Source of the DNA: Bacillus xiapuensis
Lineage (GTDB): Bacteria; Bacillota; Bacilli; Bacillales; Domibacillaceae
Assembly (NCBI RefSeq): GCF_002797355.1
Contig: NZ_KZ454940.1
Span: 310,001 to 374,000 of the forward strand
Length of the DNA stretch: 64,000 bases
Reading direction: 5' to 3'
Both the position numbers and the translations under genes were made by a program. Within the stretch, counting starts at the first letter, position 1. Every line of letters begins with the position of its first letter. The notes beneath the pieces are model-generated. The model was not told the origin of the DNA. It did not search any database and saw only the letters and a list, made by a program, of their open reading frames with translations. Shown here piece after piece: positions 26,143 through 34,704 of the stretch.

Positions 26143-27003
26143 CTATTCTTTCACAATATGCGTCCAGCCATCTTCTTGGTAGACTCTTTTTTCTTTCATC
26201 AGCTTGCCGAGCGCGCGTTTGAAAGCGCCCTTGCTTAAACCAAAGCGCTTTTGAATTTCTTCCGGAAAGCTCTTATCGCCATAAGGCATGGAGCCGCCGC
26301 GATGGACGAGATATTCATAAATTTCTTCTGCATCGTCCTTCTGTACTTCATGGCGGCGGCCGAGAAGTGAAATGTTGACGGATCCATCCTCTTTGACGTC
26401 AATAATCCGGCCATCGACTTTTTGTCCAAGGCGCGGCTCTTCTTGCCGCTGCGAATAATGGACAAAGCCGCGATAGCCTTCTGCCGTGATCACAAAAGTG
26501 CCCGCTTTGGCAGCGCGATACACAATCCCGGTAACATCTTTGTTATAATCTTTTTTCGTCGCTTTCGTAAACTGCTCCTGCATCACTTCTTCTGTCGCCG
26601 GTTTAGCAAACAGGCGGCCGCGGCGGTCGAGCTTCAACGTACAATACAATCTGTCGCCAACAATCGGGCGCACCGAATACAGAAACGGCAAGTCATCCTC
26701 GGACACAAGAATATCTTTCGTGATGCCGATCGATACGAATACGCCCAGCTTTTCTTCCACGCCAACGACTTCCACCCATCCGTACTGCCCCAGCGTAATC
26801 ATCGGCTTCACCATCGTAGCAGCAAGGCGGCCTTGATGATCTTGGAACAAAAACACCTCCGCCGGCTCATCCGGATCGAACTCCTCTGTTATTTGCGAAT
26901 GATGCAAAAGAACCGTTTCTTCTCCATCGGTCAAAAACCAGCCAAACGGCGCTTCATTCTTAACCTCTAGCGTTCTCACAGTTCCAGCTTGTAAATGAGA
27001 CAT
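26143..27003 (-). CDS. cvfB: CvfB-type S1 RNA-binding protein
   Basis: 286 aa from the ATG at 27003 (AAGGA ~10 nt before; the longer frame to 27123 runs through the promoter). Tandem S1-like RNA-binding domains (~1-210; e.g. GWVEVVGVEEKLGVFVSIGI and GFVHYSQ) and a C-terminal winged helix (~220-286; IQKRFGLSKGAFKRALGKLM). Family members are S. aureus CvfB and B. subtilis YitL, regulators of virulence or translation. Its first 56 coding nt and promoter are duplicated at 34535-34704 on the far side of the island. Confidence 0.9.
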   Translation of the reverse strand: MSHLQAGTVRTLEVKNEAPFGWFLTDGEETVLLHHSQITEEFDPDEPAEVFLFQDHQGRLAATMVKPMITLGQYGWVEVVGVEEKLGVFVSIGITKDILVSEDDLPFLYSVRPIVGDRLYCTLKLDRRGRLFAKPATEEVMQEQFTKATKKDYNKDVTGIVYRAAKAGTFVITAEGYRGFVHYSQRQEEPRLGQKVDGRIIDVKEDGSVNISLLGRRHEVQKDDAEEIYEYLVHRGGSMPYGDKSFPEEIQKRFGLSKGAFKRALGKLMKEKRVYQEDGWTHIVKE

Positions 27004-27117
27004 ATATGTGAAATCCTTCTTTCTTTTATATTTAGTAACCAATTTCCCCGAATTGCTTCTAATTATAACAGGAATCCGCAATCTCTGCGGCAATTTGCCG
27101 TTTATTCTGCCGCCATT
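26948..27117. repeat. Direct repeat DR1 (island left end)
   Basis: 170 bp covering the first 56 nt of cvfB plus 114 nt upstream. 168 of 170 bases match DR2 at 34535-34704 in the same orientation; both mismatches lie in the first 15 nt. Confidence 0.95.
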
Positions 27118-27327: not shown

Positions 27328-27993
27328 TCATAGATTCACATTAATAATTCCCATCCGCACCGCCTCGGCTAAGGCTTCTGATCGGGAGTTGACTTTAAAT
27401 TTCTTGTAGATTTTCGTTAAATTATATTCAACTGCACGGACACTCATAAACAATTCTTCAGCAATTTCTTTATTCCCTCTTCCTTTTGAAATACCTTCAA
27501 GTATCTCCACCTCTTTTTGAGTAACAGAAATATTTGCTGGTTTCTTTTTGTTGGAGTTTGTTGTTTGAATCGTAACATCCGAAAGTCTTAATTGACTTAA
27601 TAATGATATAGGAATAAGCGTGTACCCATGTAATACAGCTTGTATAGCCATCAAAAGTTCCTGTTTAGAAGCAGATTTACTAATAATTCCACTGACCCCG
27701 GAGTCAATTAATAAATTAAATTGAGAAGTATAATCAAACCCTGTATAAAGAATGATTTTTGCATCTTTATGAAATTTAAAAATCTTTGGGGCCAACTCAA
27801 GTCCAGAGCAATCAGGCATATTCATATCTAATAAGTAAACATCAAAAGGCTTTTCTCGGCTCATATTGATAACGTCATCAATAGACATAAGATAGGTAAC
27901 ATCAAACTCTTTTTCCTGCTCAATCATATTCTTCGTTCCTTCACCCACCAATTGGTGGTCATCTACAATTAAAACGCGTGTCAACTTTATCAC
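27328..27993 (-). CDS. ComA-like LuxR-family response regulator
   Basis: 221 aa. Receiver domain (~5-120) with acidic pocket VDDH, phospho-acceptor Asp in LLDMNMPD (~57) and Lys in ISKSAS; C-terminal LuxR/NarL helix-turn-helix (~150-215) with GRGNKEIAEELFMSVRAVEY. The receiver and HTH resemble B. subtilis ComA, which activates quorum-sensing genes. Overlaps the kinase gene by 4 nt (ATGA), so the pair is co-translated. Predicted to bind the two TTGCGG-type sites in this island. Confidence 0.88.
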   Translation of the reverse strand: MIKLTRVLIVDDHQLVGEGTKNMIEQEKEFDVTYLMSIDDVINMSREKPFDVYLLDMNMPDCSGLELAPKIFKFHKDAKIILYTGFDYTSQFNLLIDSGVSGIISKSASKQELLMAIQAVLHGYTLIPISLLSQLRLSDVTIQTTNSNKKKPANISVTQKEVEILEGISKGRGNKEIAEELFMSVRAVEYNLTKIYKKFKVNSRSEALAEAVRMGIINVNL

Positions 27994-30373
27994 CTCGGTA
28001 TTGTAATATAAACTTGTAAGCCTTTCCCCTTGCTAGTGATAAACTCCACTTTCCCATTTAAGCTGAGGATCCGCTCTTTTAAACCAGATAATCCCATATG
28101 ATTCTTTTTAGTAGGTGGTGATTTTATATCAAACCCTTTCCCATTATCACGGTAGTCAATAAAAATCGTTTGATCATCTTCCCACATACTGACGGATACA
28201 CGGGTAGCTTCCGAATGTTTATCAGCGTTATTAAGGAGTTCTTGAAAGACGCGATAGATTGATAATGTTGTATTATAATCCTCAAATGTAACTGAAATAT
28301 TATCAAACTGATAATCAAGATGATATTTAACTCGCATTTGGATCTGGGAAAATAATTCGTTCAATGATTTAATAAGTCCACCCTCTAATAAGAGGTTGGG
28401 TCTTAATTCATTACAAGTACTGCGAATTTGTTTAATAACATCAACCATCCCATTTTTGATTTTTACTAATTGCTCTTGTACATCACTTGGGATGTCTTGA
28501 TTTTCTTGAATTACATTTTCCAATTTTCGATACCAAACAATCTGATCCTGCAAGGCGGAATCATGCAAATCTGAAGCCAACCGTCTTCGTTCTCTTTCAG
28601 CCAATTGAAATAAAAATCGCGATAATGAAACAGATGCAGGGTGATCCCCAATGTTCGGCTTTTGCAATGACTGGATTAAGTTATTAACAGCATGTAAGTT
28701 CTCGTAAACAAGGCGAACATATTTTACGATAGTAATCATCCAAGTTTTTTCATTGATATTAAAGCTTGTTTGGTTCCTTTTATGGCCTATCCAAACATAG
28801 ATCATTTTTTGATCCTTATGATAAAGCCGGATTCCAAGTGAATCTTTAAGTTCCATTAAATCCCCATTCGTATCGCTTTGAATTAGCCATTCTTGATGTT
28901 TACGAAGGGTAAACTGATCATTATCACCGTGAACTACCCTTGTAGTATATTGGGACGTTTCCGAATCATATTCAACAAAGGTAATGATTGAGGGATTTAA
29001 AACAGAGACTACTTCTTTCACTAAAAGTCTATCTAATTCCTCTTCCTTCATAACGGCAGATAATTTTTGGGTAAACTGTTCAATGTTTTGGGTTAAATTT
29101 GTTTTATCCCTGAAGAGTTGATTTCGAAAAGAATAATCAACCTTTTCCTTCAGCAGTAAAAAGATAATATTTAACGTAAGTATTAAGAAAAAATTCTGTA
29201 GAAAACGGCTATATACATTACTCTCATGATTGACCGTTCCACTGACCACGAAAGAAATAATAATCGTTGGTATCAAGGATAAAACGGTATAATATCGAAT
29301 CCGATTCAAAATAAAATTAATATCCAACAGCTGCTTTGTTAAGATCAAATAAGAATAACCTATTGGAATGGCAAAAAGAAACAAAGCTGCCACATCATCT
29401 GGTAAATATGGCAGTCCTATTATATAAGGAATGGCATGAAAAAAATAAAAGGAACAAACGCAACAGTTGGAATTACTAACATCCATTTTAGAAAAGGTTC
29501 ATGTAAAGAATCCCGCTTTTTTATGTATATATAAATTAAAAGTCCAATGGAATAAACGATATTAAAAGAAAAGTAGATCAGCATTAAATTGTCCGTAAAT
29601 AAACCTGATAATTCCTTAATAATCAAGCTATATAAATTGAGCAAAATAATTAGAATAGCAAGGATGATATTGATTGTTAACATAACTTTGGGCTTTTTTT
29701 GAATAAACCCCTTCTCCAAAAAGGTCGAATATACAAAGCAAAAAAAGCTAAGTGCTCCAAGTTGAAAAGAAAAGATTAAAATGAGATCAGCAACAAAATC
29801 CCTATGCGTTGCATTTGATGATAAAAAGCTGAGAGATGCTAACATCATAAAACCTAGCATAAAGTTAGCTGTTGCATTTTTTTTCTGAAAAATTAAAACC
29901 GATAAAAGCAACGTTAGGATTGAAAAAACACCTGGTATATAGAGTTCCTGCAAAAAATCTGAAACCTTTTTATCCGGTGCCATGAAGCGGATTACTTTAT
30001 CATTATGTTCAACTGTTAAATCATCAGCATATTTAAGCGTATTCTGAACACCAGTCCCTTTTAATTCCTTCCCATCAATCTTTTTAATAATATCTCCCTT
30101 TTTAATATCTGTATTGTTCACCCAACCATTCTTGTTGATATGCTCAACAATAAAATTTTGGTGTTGATCTATGGATATTGTTACTCCACTAAAGGGACGT
30201 ACCATCTGTGCAATCAAATACGTGTGTAAGGCTATATATACAATGAAGATAAAAATAGCCATGACTCTTCTAATTTTTATAACCATGCCTTCTTGTGTTC
30301 CTTCCAAAAAATTACAAATATACTTTGCGGTCATTACAAACTCGTTTTCGGTAATTACACCCAAGTTATCCAT
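27990..30373 (-). pseudogene. ComP-like sensor histidine kinase, split by a frameshift
   Basis: Two frames together make one ~780-aa ComP-type kinase. The N-terminal piece (29420-30373, 317 aa) has a first membrane helix, an extracellular loop with a PDZ-like segment (NNTDIKKGDIIKKIDGKEL) and more helices. The C-terminal piece has further helices, a GAF-like region, HisKA_3 with DLHDSALQDQ and an HATPase with DNGKGFD. The frame breaks at a run of seven T (minus strand, about 29439-29445): eight or five T would restore it. Minus-one ribosomal slippage at T-TTT-TTC would also join the frames. The true start is uncertain; no good ribosome site precedes 30373, 30334 or 30286. Confidence 0.8.
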
Positions 30374-30379
30374 TATAAT
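30325..30379 (+). promoter_or_regulatory. ComA-like activated promoter of the ComX-like gene (P1)
   Basis: TTGCGG (30325-30330), 15 nt, TTTCGG (30346-30351), 22 nt, TATAAT (30374-30379). Half-sites resemble the TTGCGG/TTTCGG recognition elements of ComA, here 21 bp (two turns) apart in direct orientation. Confidence 0.6.
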
Positions 30380-30411
30380 GAAATCATAAAATATGAAAGG
30401 TGCGATAAATG

Positions 30412-30576
30412 ATGGTTATGGAAATCGTTGAACTATTAATAGCAAATCCAAATATTCAAGAGTGGAGTCAATCAAGCACACAACTTCTTAAAGAATTTAC
30501 AAGTTCAGAAATAAAACCATCTCCCCTTTTAATCCATCCTCGATCTTATTATGGTTCCTTCAGTTCAACCGCATAA
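30412..30576 (+). CDS. ComX-like pheromone precursor (54 aa)
   Basis: Starts at ATG 30412 with GAAAGGTG 9 nt before; the third codon is also ATG. The N-terminal part (MEIVELLIANPNIQEW) has the ComX-family pattern EIV-x2-L-x2-NP. The C-terminal part, where the mature pheromone lies, ends HPRSYYGSFSSTA. ComX peptides are prenylated on a Trp near the C-terminus by ComQ; here the only Trp is in the N-terminal half and no comQ is present. It is divergent from the ComP-like kinase. The identity rests on the N-terminal pattern and position, so moderate. Confidence 0.6.
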   Translation: MVMEIVELLIANPNIQEWSQSSTQLLKEFTSSEIKPSPLLIHPRSYYGSFSSTA

Positions 30577-30753
30577 ATTGGAAGAAAAATCCCTTATTTT
30601 ATATATTTCGACATTAGGATTATTTTCCCTTTAAAGTTTTTTGTAAAGTAATTCCTAAGAATATGGGTACCTATAAGACCTTTATTTGCTGCTTTTTATC
30701 CAAATACTCCTGGTCGGAAACTGCAGTTTTTTGAGTGTTTTAACAAACAAATA

Positions 30754-30808
30754 TTGCGGTTTTCCCTGTTTGGTTGGCGGTTAATACTTGCTGTTATCAA
30801 GATATGAT
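30754..30808 (+). promoter_or_regulatory. ComA-like activated promoter of the exporter operon (P2)
   Basis: TTGCGG (30754-30759), 15 nt, TGGCGG (30775-30780), 22 nt, TATGAT (30803-30808). Spacing is identical to P1. Transcription should start near 30815, right at the edge of the protease fragment. Confidence 0.6.
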
Positions 30809-30820
30809 GTTAGTAAGTAA

Positions 30821-31765
30821 AATCACAATATAAAAATTGGAATCGTTGATAGTGGGGTAGATATTCATCACCCAGACCTTAAACACAATATCATCAGTCC
30901 AGGAAAATCCCTTGTCCCAGGCGTTTCCTCCATGGTAGATGAAATTGGTCATGGAACGATGGCAGCCGGATCGATAGCAGCTAATGGAAATATTACAGGG
31001 GTATCTCCAGAGGTCGGCATTGTCCCATACAAGGTATTTCAAGGATATTCCGCTGACTCCAGCTGGATCATTAAAGGCATTATTGATGCTGCCAACGATG
31101 ATATGGACATCATTAACCTAAGCTTAGGAACGTACAAGTCGCTAAAAAATAAGGAAGACCGTGCAACCTATCTTTCCTATATGCGTGCCATTGATTATGC
31201 CAATAAAAAAGGAAGCTTGCTAGTAGCTTCATCTGGTACAGATGGATATGACTTAACAACCCCTAAGAAACTTGCTGAACAAATGGGATTGAAAAACGAT
31301 CTTCAGCTTCATATGCCTGGTGGATTACCGAATGTAGTTACTGTATCCGCAACCAATCTGAATGATCAACTAGCCTACTATTCTAATTATGGAACCAATG
31401 TTGATATTGCAGCTCCGGCTGGAGACTATGGACCAAACTTTGCAGATCAACAGAAAGTAGAATTGGAATATATGACGATCACAACTCATCCTACTACACT
31501 ACCGCAATCCGAACTTAGTCAATACATGGGATTTGCACATGGTTATGAATTTATGATTGGCACAAGCTTAGCAGTACCTAAAGTTTCAGCTACAGCAGTC
31601 CTAATCATAGCTGAATATCAAGAGAAATATGGGAAAAAGCCATCTCCACATGTAATTAAAAGATACCTTTATGGCGGAACTGTTCAAGGAAACGGAACCA
31701 CAAGACAATTAGGAAATGGAATTGTAAATGCTAAAAACTCTTTAGATCTTGTAAATAAACGATAA
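30821..31765 (+). pseudogene. Truncated lantibiotic-type subtilase (LanP-like)
   Basis: The frame is open from 30821 after a TAA and begins inside the catalytic domain. Present are Asp (IVDSGVDIHHPDL), His (GHGTMAAGS) and Ser (MIGTSLAVPKVSATAV), the last segment resembling LanP leader peptidases. The oxyanion Asn is replaced: SSGTDG where SSGND or AAGND is usual. Signal peptide and propeptide are absent, and no ATG/GTG/TTG precedes the catalytic Asp in frame; the first ATG (30932) would lose it. Most likely non-functional, but still inside the transcript of the exporter genes. Confidence 0.75.
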
Positions 31766-31779
31766 CGGAGGAAAACAAA

Positions 31780-31857
31780 ATGAAAATGAAATCTTTATTA
31801 ATGACAGCTTTAGGTGTGCTGATAGGTGCCGCAATTATTTACTTCATTAAGAACTAA
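31780..31857 (+). CDS. 25-aa hydrophobic peptide
   Basis: Encodes MKMKSLLMTALGVLIGAAII followed by YFIKN. CGGAGG is 8 nt before the ATG. One membrane-spanning helix with Lys at both ends. Lies 15 nt after the protease stop and 16 nt before the ABC ATPase, so it is in the operon. Could be an immunity peptide, a toxin-like peptide or an exporter subunit; unknown. Confidence 0.6.
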   Translation: MKMKSLLMTALGVLIGAAIIYFIKN

Positions 31858-31872
31858 GAAAGGATGTATAAA

Positions 31873-32763
31873 ATGGCCTTTGAAATCCAAGGATTAAATA
31901 AATCATTTGGAAATTATCAAGCTGTGAATAATTTAAATATTAAACTTGAAGAAGGAAATATTTTGGGAATGCTTGGACGAAATGGGGCTGGAAAAACCAC
32001 AACCATTCGAATGATTCTAGATATTATTAAGCCGGATAGTGGCTCTATTCTCTGGAATGGGCGTCCATTGTCCAAAAAAGAGTTATTGATCGGCTATCTT
32101 CCCGAGGAAAGAGGCCTTTATCCAAAGATGAATGTCGTAGAACAATTGGTATTTCTAGCTAGATTAGAGGGTATTCCTTCAAAAATTGCGAAAAAACAGG
32201 CATTGAACTGGTTAGAAAGATTGGAAATGACCCCTTATGTTAAAAAGAAAACAGAAGAACTATCGAAGGGAAATCAACAGAAGGTTCAGCTAATTAGCTG
32301 CTTAATCCATGATCCGGATTTCATCATTTTAGATGAACCATTCAGTGGCTTAGACCCTGTAAACGCTGAAATGCTAAAGGATGTAGTCAAGGACCTAATA
32401 AAGAAGCGAAAAACAATCATATTTTGCAGTCATCAAATGGATAGTGTTGAGACCTTCTGCGAAGAAATATGCATCATGAAAAACGGAATCAAGGTATTGT
32501 CAGGATCCTTATCTGAAATCAAAAAAAGCTATGGATATCGTTATTTAGATGTACAGTCTGATGAAGATCTAGAGCCAGTTTTAGCCCAGAAAGATTATCG
32601 ATACAAACGAAATAACCAGGGCTACTCCATTAAACTGACGAAAGATCAGGCACCTCTGAAGCTTATACAGGAAATTGATCAACTATATGGAGTACGAAGC
32701 CTTTACCTAAGGGAGCCTAGCCTACATCAAATATTCATCGAAAAAACGGGGGCGAAAATATGA
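31873..32763 (+). CDS. ABC transporter ATP-binding protein (NatA-like)
   Basis: 296 aa from ATG 31873 (AAAGG 9 nt before; the ATG at 31864 is too close). Walker A GRNGAGKTT, signature LSKGNQQKV, Walker B FIILDEPFSGLDP, H-loop CSHQM, then a C-terminal ~80-residue extension (DUF4162-like) common in NatA and antibiotic-export ATPases. Overlaps the permease by 4 nt. Powers the adjacent permease, possibly for peptide export or self-immunity. Confidence 0.9.
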   Translation: MAFEIQGLNKSFGNYQAVNNLNIKLEEGNILGMLGRNGAGKTTTIRMILDIIKPDSGSILWNGRPLSKKELLIGYLPEERGLYPKMNVVEQLVFLARLEGIPSKIAKKQALNWLERLEMTPYVKKKTEELSKGNQQKVQLISCLIHDPDFIILDEPFSGLDPVNAEMLKDVVKDLIKKRKTIIFCSHQMDSVETFCEEICIMKNGIKVLSGSLSEIKKSYGYRYLDVQSDEDLEPVLAQKDYRYKRNNQGYSIKLTKDQAPLKLIQEIDQLYGVRSLYLREPSLHQIFIEKTGAKI

Positions 32764-33977
32764 GAAGCTTTGGGATCATACTGCAACAGACCTATCTTCA
32801 AGCTATACGATCTAAGCCGTATGTATGGATAACCATTGTGTTGATTTTCATTGGAGCTTTCATCTTAGCTCTCCCAAGTATAATGGAGAAATTCTCAGAC
32901 AAAGAGGAAGCTGGAAATTTTGTTTTAATTACGAATGATGATTTCCAAATGAGTCAGCAACAATTGGATACCTTCCCATCAGATCATCTCTTTAAACTGG
33001 GCGATAGCTCGAATGTTGAAAGTTATAAAGAAAAGATTATTAATAACAAACTTGATGGATTGTTTGTTTTAAAGAATGGAGCGAATCCATCATCCATCCA
33101 ATTAGATTATTATATGGAAAAGGATGATCCTTTACTTGTTCAAAATATGAAAGCTTTTGTGCAAAATTTTCACTTCCAACAAATTATTACTGAGAAAAAT
33201 ATAGATCAGGACGTAGCAAATATGCTTTCGGTTCAAATTGAACCAACAATGCAGCCATTAAGGGATACAGACACCCATTCATTTCTTATGATTTATTTAT
33301 TAATCAGTATAATGTTCTTGGCCATTACCACCTATGGAAATAATGTGGCAACAGCGATCACATCAGAGAAATCATCGAGGGTGATGGAAGTCATGATTAC
33401 AAAAATCTCTCCAGTTCCGATGATGTTTGGAAAAATCCTCGGTATCGGTCTAGCAAGCTTGACACAGCTGTTCATATTCTTCGCCAGTACGATCATGATG
33501 GCGAGAATGGAAATTTTCAAAATTAAAGAAGGCAGTATTGCCGATACATTGATGAATATGCTGACTGTTTCTTATACCCTTTACTTTTTACTAATCTTTA
33601 TCCTTGGCTACTTTATTTACGCAGCACTCTTTGCGGTCATTGGATCGATGGCAAGTCGGCCAGAAGAGTTATCCAGTAGTACATTACCGATTACCATTAT
33701 TTTAATGGCAAGTTTATTAGTAGAAATGATCTTTGTTATAGATCATCCAGAAGGATTAACAGCGAAAATCACATCGTATATTCCATTTACAGCTCCCATT
33801 AGTTTAATGGTTAGAATCGTAAACGAGGTGGTTTCACCGTTAGAAATTGTGCTGTCGATCGGGTCCATGCTAGTGAGCATCGCACTCTTCTCCTTATTAG
33901 CAGCGAAAATCTACCCGAAAGGCATTCTCAAAACCGATAAGCGATTAACATTTGGTCAACTAATTAAAAGTCATTAG
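32760..33977 (+). CDS. ABC-2 type permease (NatB-like)
   Basis: 405 aa. One N-terminal helix (~22-42), a ~140-residue external domain, then five or six C-terminal helices, the NatB/ABC-2 layout. The conserved ATAITSEKSSRVMEVMITKISP coupling segment follows the second helix. ATGA overlap with the ATPase gene. In NatAB and related systems such permeases expel sodium, peptides or antibiotics; here the flanking small peptides point to peptide export or immunity (inference). Confidence 0.88.
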   Translation: MRSFGIILQQTYLQAIRSKPYVWITIVLIFIGAFILALPSIMEKFSDKEEAGNFVLITNDDFQMSQQQLDTFPSDHLFKLGDSSNVESYKEKIINNKLDGLFVLKNGANPSSIQLDYYMEKDDPLLVQNMKAFVQNFHFQQIITEKNIDQDVANMLSVQIEPTMQPLRDTDTHSFLMIYLLISIMFLAITTYGNNVATAITSEKSSRVMEVMITKISPVPMMFGKILGIGLASLTQLFIFFASTIMMARMEIFKIKEGSIADTLMNMLTVSYTLYFLLIFILGYFIYAALFAVIGSMASRPEELSSSTLPITIILMASLLVEMIFVIDHPEGLTAKITSYIPFTAPISLMVRIVNEVVSPLEIVLSIGSMLVSIALFSLLAAKIYPKGILKTDKRLTFGQLIKSH

Positions 33978-33996: not shown

Positions 33997-34179
33997 ATGA
34001 AATTGTTTTTTCAATCGAGACGAAAAAAATTGCGGGGCCAAAATGCACACAACCACTCATCTCTGAAAGAATTAACTGTTGATGAAATGAAGCTCATTCA
34101 AGGGGCATCAAATGATAAGAACGAAAGCCTATACCGCTCCTATACCTTAGCTACAGAACATAAGCGAATGTTGCCGTGA
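33997..34179 (+). CDS. 60-aa peptide with double-glycine-like leader
   Basis: GAGGAGG lies 9 nt before the ATG. The basic N-terminus (FFQSRRKKLRG) is followed by LKELTVDEMKLIQGAS, the pattern of bacteriocin and pheromone leaders (L--EL---EM--I-GG/GA). Cutting after GA would release a 23-residue core, starting SNDKNESLYRS and ending EHKRMLP. No Cys, so not a lantibiotic. Last gene of the operon, before a terminator. No dedicated C39 peptidase transporter is seen. Confidence 0.65.
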   Translation: MKLFFQSRRKKLRGQNAHNHSSLKELTVDEMKLIQGASNDKNESLYRSYTLATEHKRMLP

Positions 34180-34209: not shown

Positions 34210-34534
34210 ATTTTACTTTAATTTAGATAATTTCATTTTATTTTCTACTGTTGATTACTTTTTCATAGGCAACTTTACTTGCCAAATTGCTTTTATCGTA
34301 TAAATGGGGCATGAAATGACGTGCAGGTGCCTGTCCCATTTTTAATGATAGGTTTCTGGAAAAAATGGACCTAACAGGAGCGGACATGTGATATAAACCT
34401 CACTAAAGGATGATAGGAGTAGATCCGAGCAATCGCTTTTTGAGCTAACGAAGCAGTATAAAATAGGGAAGGCAGATGATGGATAACCAATACTTTGTAG
34501 GCTGGGGGCACTGGCGTTGATAACTTATACATAT
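34210..34534. other. Island right-end noncoding stretch
   Basis: No complete gene. A short plus-strand frame near 34411-34483 reads RSRSEQSLFELTKQYKIGKA and ends soon after, perhaps a gene fragment. Nothing else supported. Confidence 0.3.
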
Positions 34535-34704
34535 GGCGTTTCATTCTTCACCTCTAGCGTTCTCACAGTTCCAGCTTGTAAATGAGACATATATGTGAAA
34601 TCCTTCTTTCTTTTATATTTAGTAACCAATTTCCCCGAATTGCTTCTAATTATAACAGGAATCCGCAATCTCTGCGGCAATTTGCCGTTTATTCTGCCGC
34701 CATT
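34535..34704. repeat. Direct repeat DR2 (island right end)
   Basis: Copy of 26948-27117. Holds the first 56 nt of cvfB (minus strand) as a stub and the upstream region; beyond it stands the small gene at 34747. Confidence 0.95.

Follow-up and report, generated by a model that had tools for sequence, protein, structure and literature searches.

Among the described systems that come closest to the locus reported here are comQXPA quorum sensing and the class II lanthipeptide clusters with a nearby comX. In Bacillus subtilis, according to the accessible part of PMC7794433, ComX is produced without feedback, and how a feedback-less pheromone yields a sharp switch is posed there as an open question. 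The B. subtilis ComA core promoter, as laid out in the accessible text of Wolf et al. 2015 (PMC4797271), combines an inverted repeat (IR) with a direct repeat (DR). The presence of comX next to class II lanthipeptide genes is already published: clusters of this class with a nearby comX were reported from 22 genomes (PMC12715929), in a source whose accessible portion deals with co-location as well as competence and does not take up a ComA operator for a lan operon. In our own literature search, which covered mostly papers outside subscription and these sources in part, we came across no description of a comX gene or a lan operon that carries ComA sites.

In this study, we have analyzed a 64-kb stretch of DNA (the window, taken at its full length) from a 3.26-Mb genome (G000) and have compared an island within it with a same-genus relative, G080, and with Metabacillus fastidiosus. 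It is probable (roughly 0.8, on our estimate) that two sites in this island, P1 and P2, are ComA-type activator-dependent promoters with a degenerate RE2 and that they are part of a class II lanthipeptide cluster, acquired and under comQXPA control, that has been cut down in the window.

The island and its counterparts

The island, which has cvfB on one side and a large secreted-protein gene on the other, is low in G+C content (about 31-38%, compared with 44-51% outside it). In three of the four other genus genomes (G040, G163 and the G080 chromosome), cvfB and the large gene are separated by approximately 1.9 kb; in the fourth, G199, the large secreted-protein gene was not found in the 10.5-kb stretch searched. 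Direct repeats of 175 nt, consisting of the cvfB promoter and 5' end, bracket the island on both sides. A protein search with the comX-like ORF returned no plasmid copy of the island, and searching plasmid DNA with the island produced nothing longer than short matches; these came from six records, in five of which they lay over an annotated ABC ATPase. The features are as follows.

26943..27117, no strand: 175-nt repeat on the left side of the island, made up of the cvfB promoter and 5' end
27328..27993, minus strand: comA-like response regulator gene, the island paralogue, open throughout
27990..30286, minus strand: comP-like histidine kinase gene in two frames, the frame being lost in an A-rich stretch at ~29.42-29.49 kb
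30325..30379, plus strand: P1, with RE1 TTGCGG at 30325-30330, a degenerate RE2 at 30335-30340, RE3 TTTCGG at 30346-30351 and the -10 TATAAT at 30374-30379
30409..30576, plus strand: comX-like ORF, homologous to the G080 comX only to about 30515
30515..30525, no strand: comX/comQ deletion junction, with the comX 3' end and the comQ coding region gone
30754..30808, plus strand: P2, with RE1 TTGCGG at 30754-30759, a degenerate RE2 at 30764-30769, RE3 TGGCGG at 30775-30780 and the -10 TATGAT at 30803-30808
30821..31765, plus strand: lanP-like subtilase remnant with the catalytic domain; the junction with the P2 leader is at 30821-30834
31780..31857, plus strand: ORF for a 25-aa membrane-type peptide; similar 25-aa ORFs precede natA in G080 and M. 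fastidiosus
31864..32763, plus strand: natA-like ABC ATPase
32760..33977, plus strand: natB-like ABC-2 permease
33997..34179, plus strand: gene for a 60-aa peptide that has no Cys and whose match to a mersacidin-type leader is weak (below the Pfam cut-off)
34530..34704, no strand: 175-nt repeat on the right side of the island, with 98% identity to the left copy

The window does not hold the adjacent comQ, comX with a C-terminal Trp, intact comP and comA of a comQXPA system, comA alone being open, and the island has neither lanM nor a Cys-containing precursor of the class II lanthipeptide type. No Trp occurs in the last 30 residues of the comX-like ORF, and the lanP remnant has no in-frame ATG, GTG or TTG start before its catalytic domain. 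The island ComP-like kinase gave a PDZ match below the cut-off, and VraR, DesR and other solved response regulators matched the island regulator at the family level only.

In G080, a class II lanthipeptide cluster that looks intact and includes comQXPA lies on a 62.9-kb contig (C3), alongside a ParA-like gene, integrases and a transposase; this contig may be a plasmid. A TnpB-like (OrfB_IS605) gene also lies on it (L180 5849-7039). In the orientation of the window, the left part of the cluster reads lanA, lanM, comA, comP, comX and comQ, and from P2 onwards there follow genes for a 78-aa LuxR-type HTH protein, LanT (a C39 ABC transporter), LanP (a 491-aa S8 protease), the 25-aa peptide, natA, natB and the 60-aa peptide (L014 2912-3097), the last of which is thus common to both genomes. 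All four comQXPA relatives are present: comP is a single 766-aa ORF, and ComX, which scores 24.7 bits against Pfam, just below the cut-off of 25, has a Trp next to last. Both lanM and a Cys-containing precursor are found, and the precursor peptide (L014 17063-17293) matches the Pfam entry Mersacidin, two-component enterococcal cytolysin, at 54 bits (cut-off, 27.6); the other Pfam names on the cluster are polyprenyl synthase, GerE, Peptidase_C39, Peptidase_S8 and DUF4135 with LANC_like. G080 therefore resembles the clusters in the accessible part of PMC12715929 in having lanM, a C39 transporter, a protease, a precursor and comX, whereas the window copy is decayed. It differs from known comQXPA quorum-sensing systems in that comX is divergent from comP and convergent with comQ. 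It also has a ComA-type site in front of comX, whereas ComX production in B. subtilis lacks feedback according to the available part of PMC7794433.

Two short ComA peptides, used to scan 84,980 species genomes, retrieved 28 loci, the closest being that of M. fastidiosus NBRC 101226 (75% identity), followed by Paenibacillus and two 'Bacillus sp.' records (44-49%). The island ComAs of three species have FMSVRAVEYNLTK in common in the HTH. In M. fastidiosus, comPA faces natAB across TTGCGG-N4-CCACAT-N5-TTACGG-N22-TATGAT, and this promoter is followed by the 25-aa peptide and the natA and natB genes. When the 20.7-kb stretch was searched by tblastn with G080 proteins, neither comX, comQ, any lan gene nor the 60-aa peptide turned up. 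This layout points to a common core of comPA and the 25-aa peptide-natAB genes behind a ComA-type promoter. The NatAB pair of the island is presumably comparable to LanFE/NatAB-type ABC exporters, with which it shares an ATPase and an ABC-2 permease downstream of lan genes; unlike those exporters, the island natAB genes are accompanied by the conserved 25-aa membrane-type peptide, and their role in immunity is putative.

The window copy compared with G080

When G000 was searched with 17 kb of G080 cluster DNA, nine matches were obtained: three were the island itself (comX/comP/comA, the P2 region, and lanP'-natAB-peptide), five were short, and one, at 94%, lay beyond lanA in G080. No DNA counterpart of the G080 lanM or lanA was found in G000 at E 0.001; homology to G080 stops just past comA, and both genes are absent from the window side. 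At the comX junction, homology extends to about 30515, and from 30525 the DNA corresponds to the stretch just upstream of the G080 comQ start, with ~1.07 kb (the end of comX and the whole of comQ) absent between them. At the P2/lanP junction, the alignments of the P2 leader and of mid-lanP to G080 overlap by 14 bp at 30821-30834, and ~2.95 kb, comprising the HTH gene, lanT and the front of lanP, is absent. In view of this junction, a frameshift was dropped as the explanation for the protease start. The two frames of comP may reflect an assembly error; the deletions are independent of the comP frame.

Judged from these alignments, the window copy is a remnant of a G080-type cluster, with at least three losses in addition to that of the comP frame, and we infer that these are losses in G000 rather than gains in G080, whose state would be ancestral. 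With comQ and the 3' end of comX missing from the island, and with its comP split over two frames, the island pheromone loop cannot close. The losses do not by themselves mean that the corresponding activities are gone from the cell, because another lanM and another comQ are present on contig C1 of the same genome. The C1 ComQ, which is part of a second comQXPA and 34% identical to that of G080, is the only clear ComQ relative found in G000 by protein search, and the different LanM on C1 (1059 aa) is 32% identical to the G080 LanM. A separate lanthipeptide-type locus at C1 ~218.3-228.1 kb (L188 2794-12582) comprises a C39 transporter/LanT-like gene, a LanM relative and ABC genes; no ComA core site was detected there at the thresholds used.

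The transporter retained in the window looks like left-over immunity. It could also be read as part of a selected orphan-immunity module, in which comPA would sense a foreign lanthipeptide directly and induce natAB. The minimal locus of M. fastidiosus, where the promoter stands directly before the 25-aa peptide and natAB, would suit such a module, as would natA, natB and comA, which are open in the window and have dN/dS values of 0.03-0.09 relative to G080 (0.03-0.14 with the 60-aa peptide, whose gene is likewise open); however, comP in the window is no longer in one frame, and the lanP remnant, which lacks a start, has an equally low dN/dS (0.09). With dS at 0.79-0.96 for natA, natB and comA, low dN/dS mostly reflects the time before decay, which cannot be dated from it. 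We consider a selected orphan module rather unlikely.

ComA-type sites at P1 and P2

The first-pass annotation of this DNA had proposed that two island promoters share TTGCGG-N15-TKKCGG-N22-TATRAT, with the same 21-bp half-site phasing and the same distance to the -10, and this description was borne out. The window contains two exact matches, both on the plus strand (30325-30379 and 30754-30808), compared with 0 in 100 shuffles, and a search of the 3.26-Mb genome for the uniqueness of the pattern placed exact matches at P1 and P2 only. At two mismatches G000 gains two more places, both on contig C1; the backwards pattern gives one match at up to 2 mismatches. In a scan of five genus genomes (<=1 mismatch), the pattern was confined to G000 and G080, with two sites in each, all inside the same element, and a tighter P2 pattern (up to 3 mismatches) matched only these two among 397 order genomes. 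P2 is identical to its G080 counterpart at 50/55 positions, and that counterpart is an exact pattern match; for P1 the figures are 38/55 and one mismatch. In G080 the sites are placed before comX and before the processing/exporter operon, matching P1 and P2. In the window, the proposed positions survive in part: a comX-like ORF does lie downstream of P1, but it lacks the pheromone-encoding end, and P2, which precedes the whole processing/exporter operon in G080, here adjoins the start-less protease remnant.

In other genera, ComA-type promoters have the form TTGCGG-N4-CCGCAA-N5-TTKCGG, and many of them have a -10 at N22. With no more than 1 mismatch allowed, this three-element sequence occurred in 35 of the 397 order genomes scanned, and its backwards control in 2. 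Among 39 distinct canonical sites in the loci examined, 22 had at N22 a hexamer resembling a -10 with at most 1 mismatch; it was untied in 4, tied with N17 in 16 and tied with N27 in 2. In 53 comX loci (L069-L121; 763 kb), with both strands taken together, CCGCAA (<=1 mismatch) followed an exact TTGCGG at N4 22 times, compared with 0-4 times in 20 shuffles. A second TTGCGG (<=1 mismatch) stood at N15 in 10 cases (0-5 in the shuffles), a count exceeded by the TTGCGG repeats at N27 (17) and N3 (11).

A scoring matrix restricted to RE1, RE3 and the -10 was derived from the 22 canonical sites, which had been selected for a -10 at N22. It ranked P1 first in the window (30.1) and P2 second (15.1), with the next two others at 15.0; both G080 sites came first and second in their locus (L014), and the natAB promoter came first in the M. 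fastidiosus locus (L152). A TTGCCG-N15-TTTCGG pair at 34682 (+), on the island-facing end of the right repeat, scores 15.0, close to P2, and is probably due to chance. The full profile (R1), which includes RE2, recovered neither P1 nor P2 when the whole window was searched, and neither was among the matches of a further search in which 150 of 2266 first-look candidates were scored. Its best match was the inverted-repeat site before the host comQ, and it touched the region of the M. fastidiosus site on the other strand (11.7 bits).

Alignment of five island-type sites showed where they depart from the canonical arrangement. RE1 is an exact TTGCGG in all five, and RE3 occupies its canonical place, 5 nt after the RE2 position and beside the -35. 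The canonical RE2 (CCGCAA, 4 nt after RE1) is not seen, with RE2 scores of -7.8 (P1), -9.2 (P2) and 1.3 (M. fastidiosus), and the RE4 position (TTGCGG-like, 5 nt after RE3) holds ACACCC, ACTTGT, ACTTGC, ACTTGC and ACTCAA, with a WAWTAC block following RE3. In the known ComA site, RE1 and RE3 are likewise separated by N15, and the N22 spacing to the -10 is kept; therefore, the earlier "direct repeats rather than inverted" are RE1 and RE3 of an element whose inverted partner, RE2, has been lost or changed. The resemblance to ComA elements itself was upheld, both by the register shared with core promoters of other genera and by the matrix ranking in the window. Compared with the B. subtilis core promoter in the accessible part of PMC4797271, the island sites are alike in their TTGCGG hexamers, an element beside a poor -35 and the class of regulator; they differ in the degenerate RE2 and in having WAWTAC instead of a recognizable RE4, an element that is degenerate in B. 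subtilis promoters too.

On the sequence comparison, P1 and P2 are derivatives of the ComA core promoter, not canonical members, and binding by ComA is predicted. According to the available portion of the same study (PMC4797271), B. subtilis ComA failed to bind in vitro either to one RE by itself or to a pair of REs at n = 15; two-half-site binding at P1 and P2 is therefore not to be assumed, and RE2/RE4-like contacts, cooperativity or a changed ComA would be needed. We tentatively suggest that such sites may constitute a separate operator class belonging to the ComA that lanthipeptide elements of this clade carry, namely, two half-sites 21 bp apart without RE2 and with WAWTAC, used on the pheromone gene and the exporter operon and giving positive feedback insulated from the host comQXPA.

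Cross-talk between the host comQXPA and the island promoters is a live rival reading. A second comQXPA lies on C1 at ~259.7-263.6 kb (L064 4215-8108), with comQ, comX, comP and comA all open, an inverted-repeat ComA-type site upstream of comQ and a further site, TTGTGG-N4-CCGCAA-N5-TTGTGG-N22-TAGAGT, just after comA. P1 and P2 might now answer to this host ComA, which belongs to the same LuxR-type HTH family as the island ComA; however, the host sites retain RE2 and the island sites do not, and the two ComA proteins are only 38% identical and differ in the recognition helix, so we regard a takeover by host ComA as unlikely. Coincidence, with two matching sites having arisen by chance in an AT-rich island, was rejected as very improbable: the pattern was picked after both sites had been seen, and the matrix score of P2 is thin, but it is unique in the genome, absent from the shuffles and conserved at matching places in G080 and M. 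fastidiosus, and comQ promoters of other genera show the same register.

Proposed regulation of the pheromone and exporter genes

Sites are kept before comX and the exporter operon in G080, and a similar one stands before natAB in M. fastidiosus. For the intact system, these positions are therefore best explained by an island ComA that controls both the pheromone gene and the exporter operon. In the form represented by G080, prenylated ComX would activate ComP, and phosphorylated ComA would bind both P1 and P2, where RE1 and RE3 lie 21 bp apart, with RE3 against the -35 region and 22 bp before the -10. Activation of P1 would raise comX expression and so generate positive feedback, and activation of P2 would switch on the HTH-lanT-lanP-membrane peptide-natAB-peptide operon. 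No ComA core was found in the region upstream of lanA in G080; that the small HTH gene in the P2 operon relays control to lanA would be no more than a guess. What the losses would have left in the window are the promoters, comA and a probable immunity transporter. The first-pass prediction that the island regulator activates its own pheromone gene and the exporter operon thus probably held in the ancestor and in G080, where the placement of the sites, together with the natAB site of M. fastidiosus, agrees with it, and not in the window genome, where the loop is broken by the loss of comQ, the comX end and the comP frame.

ComA cores also precede comQ elsewhere. Among 47 comQ-bearing order loci, 7 had such a core when as many as 4 mismatches were allowed and 4 when the limit was 1, whereas random windows of those loci gave expectations of 0.5 and 0.18, respectively; the seven are L078, L082, L086, L091, L095, L087 and L097. 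This distribution suggests that feedback on pheromone genes exists in other lineages.

In conclusion, the G080 and G000 copies provide an intact-looking and a decayed version of one lanthipeptide element. If the proposed operator class is real, this element would have possessed a pheromone positive-feedback loop that is absent in B. subtilis and that is insulated from a host comQXPA, with its inverted-repeat sites, in the same cell. The ComA cores before comX here and before comQ in 7 of the 47 loci predict that feedback operates outside B. subtilis.
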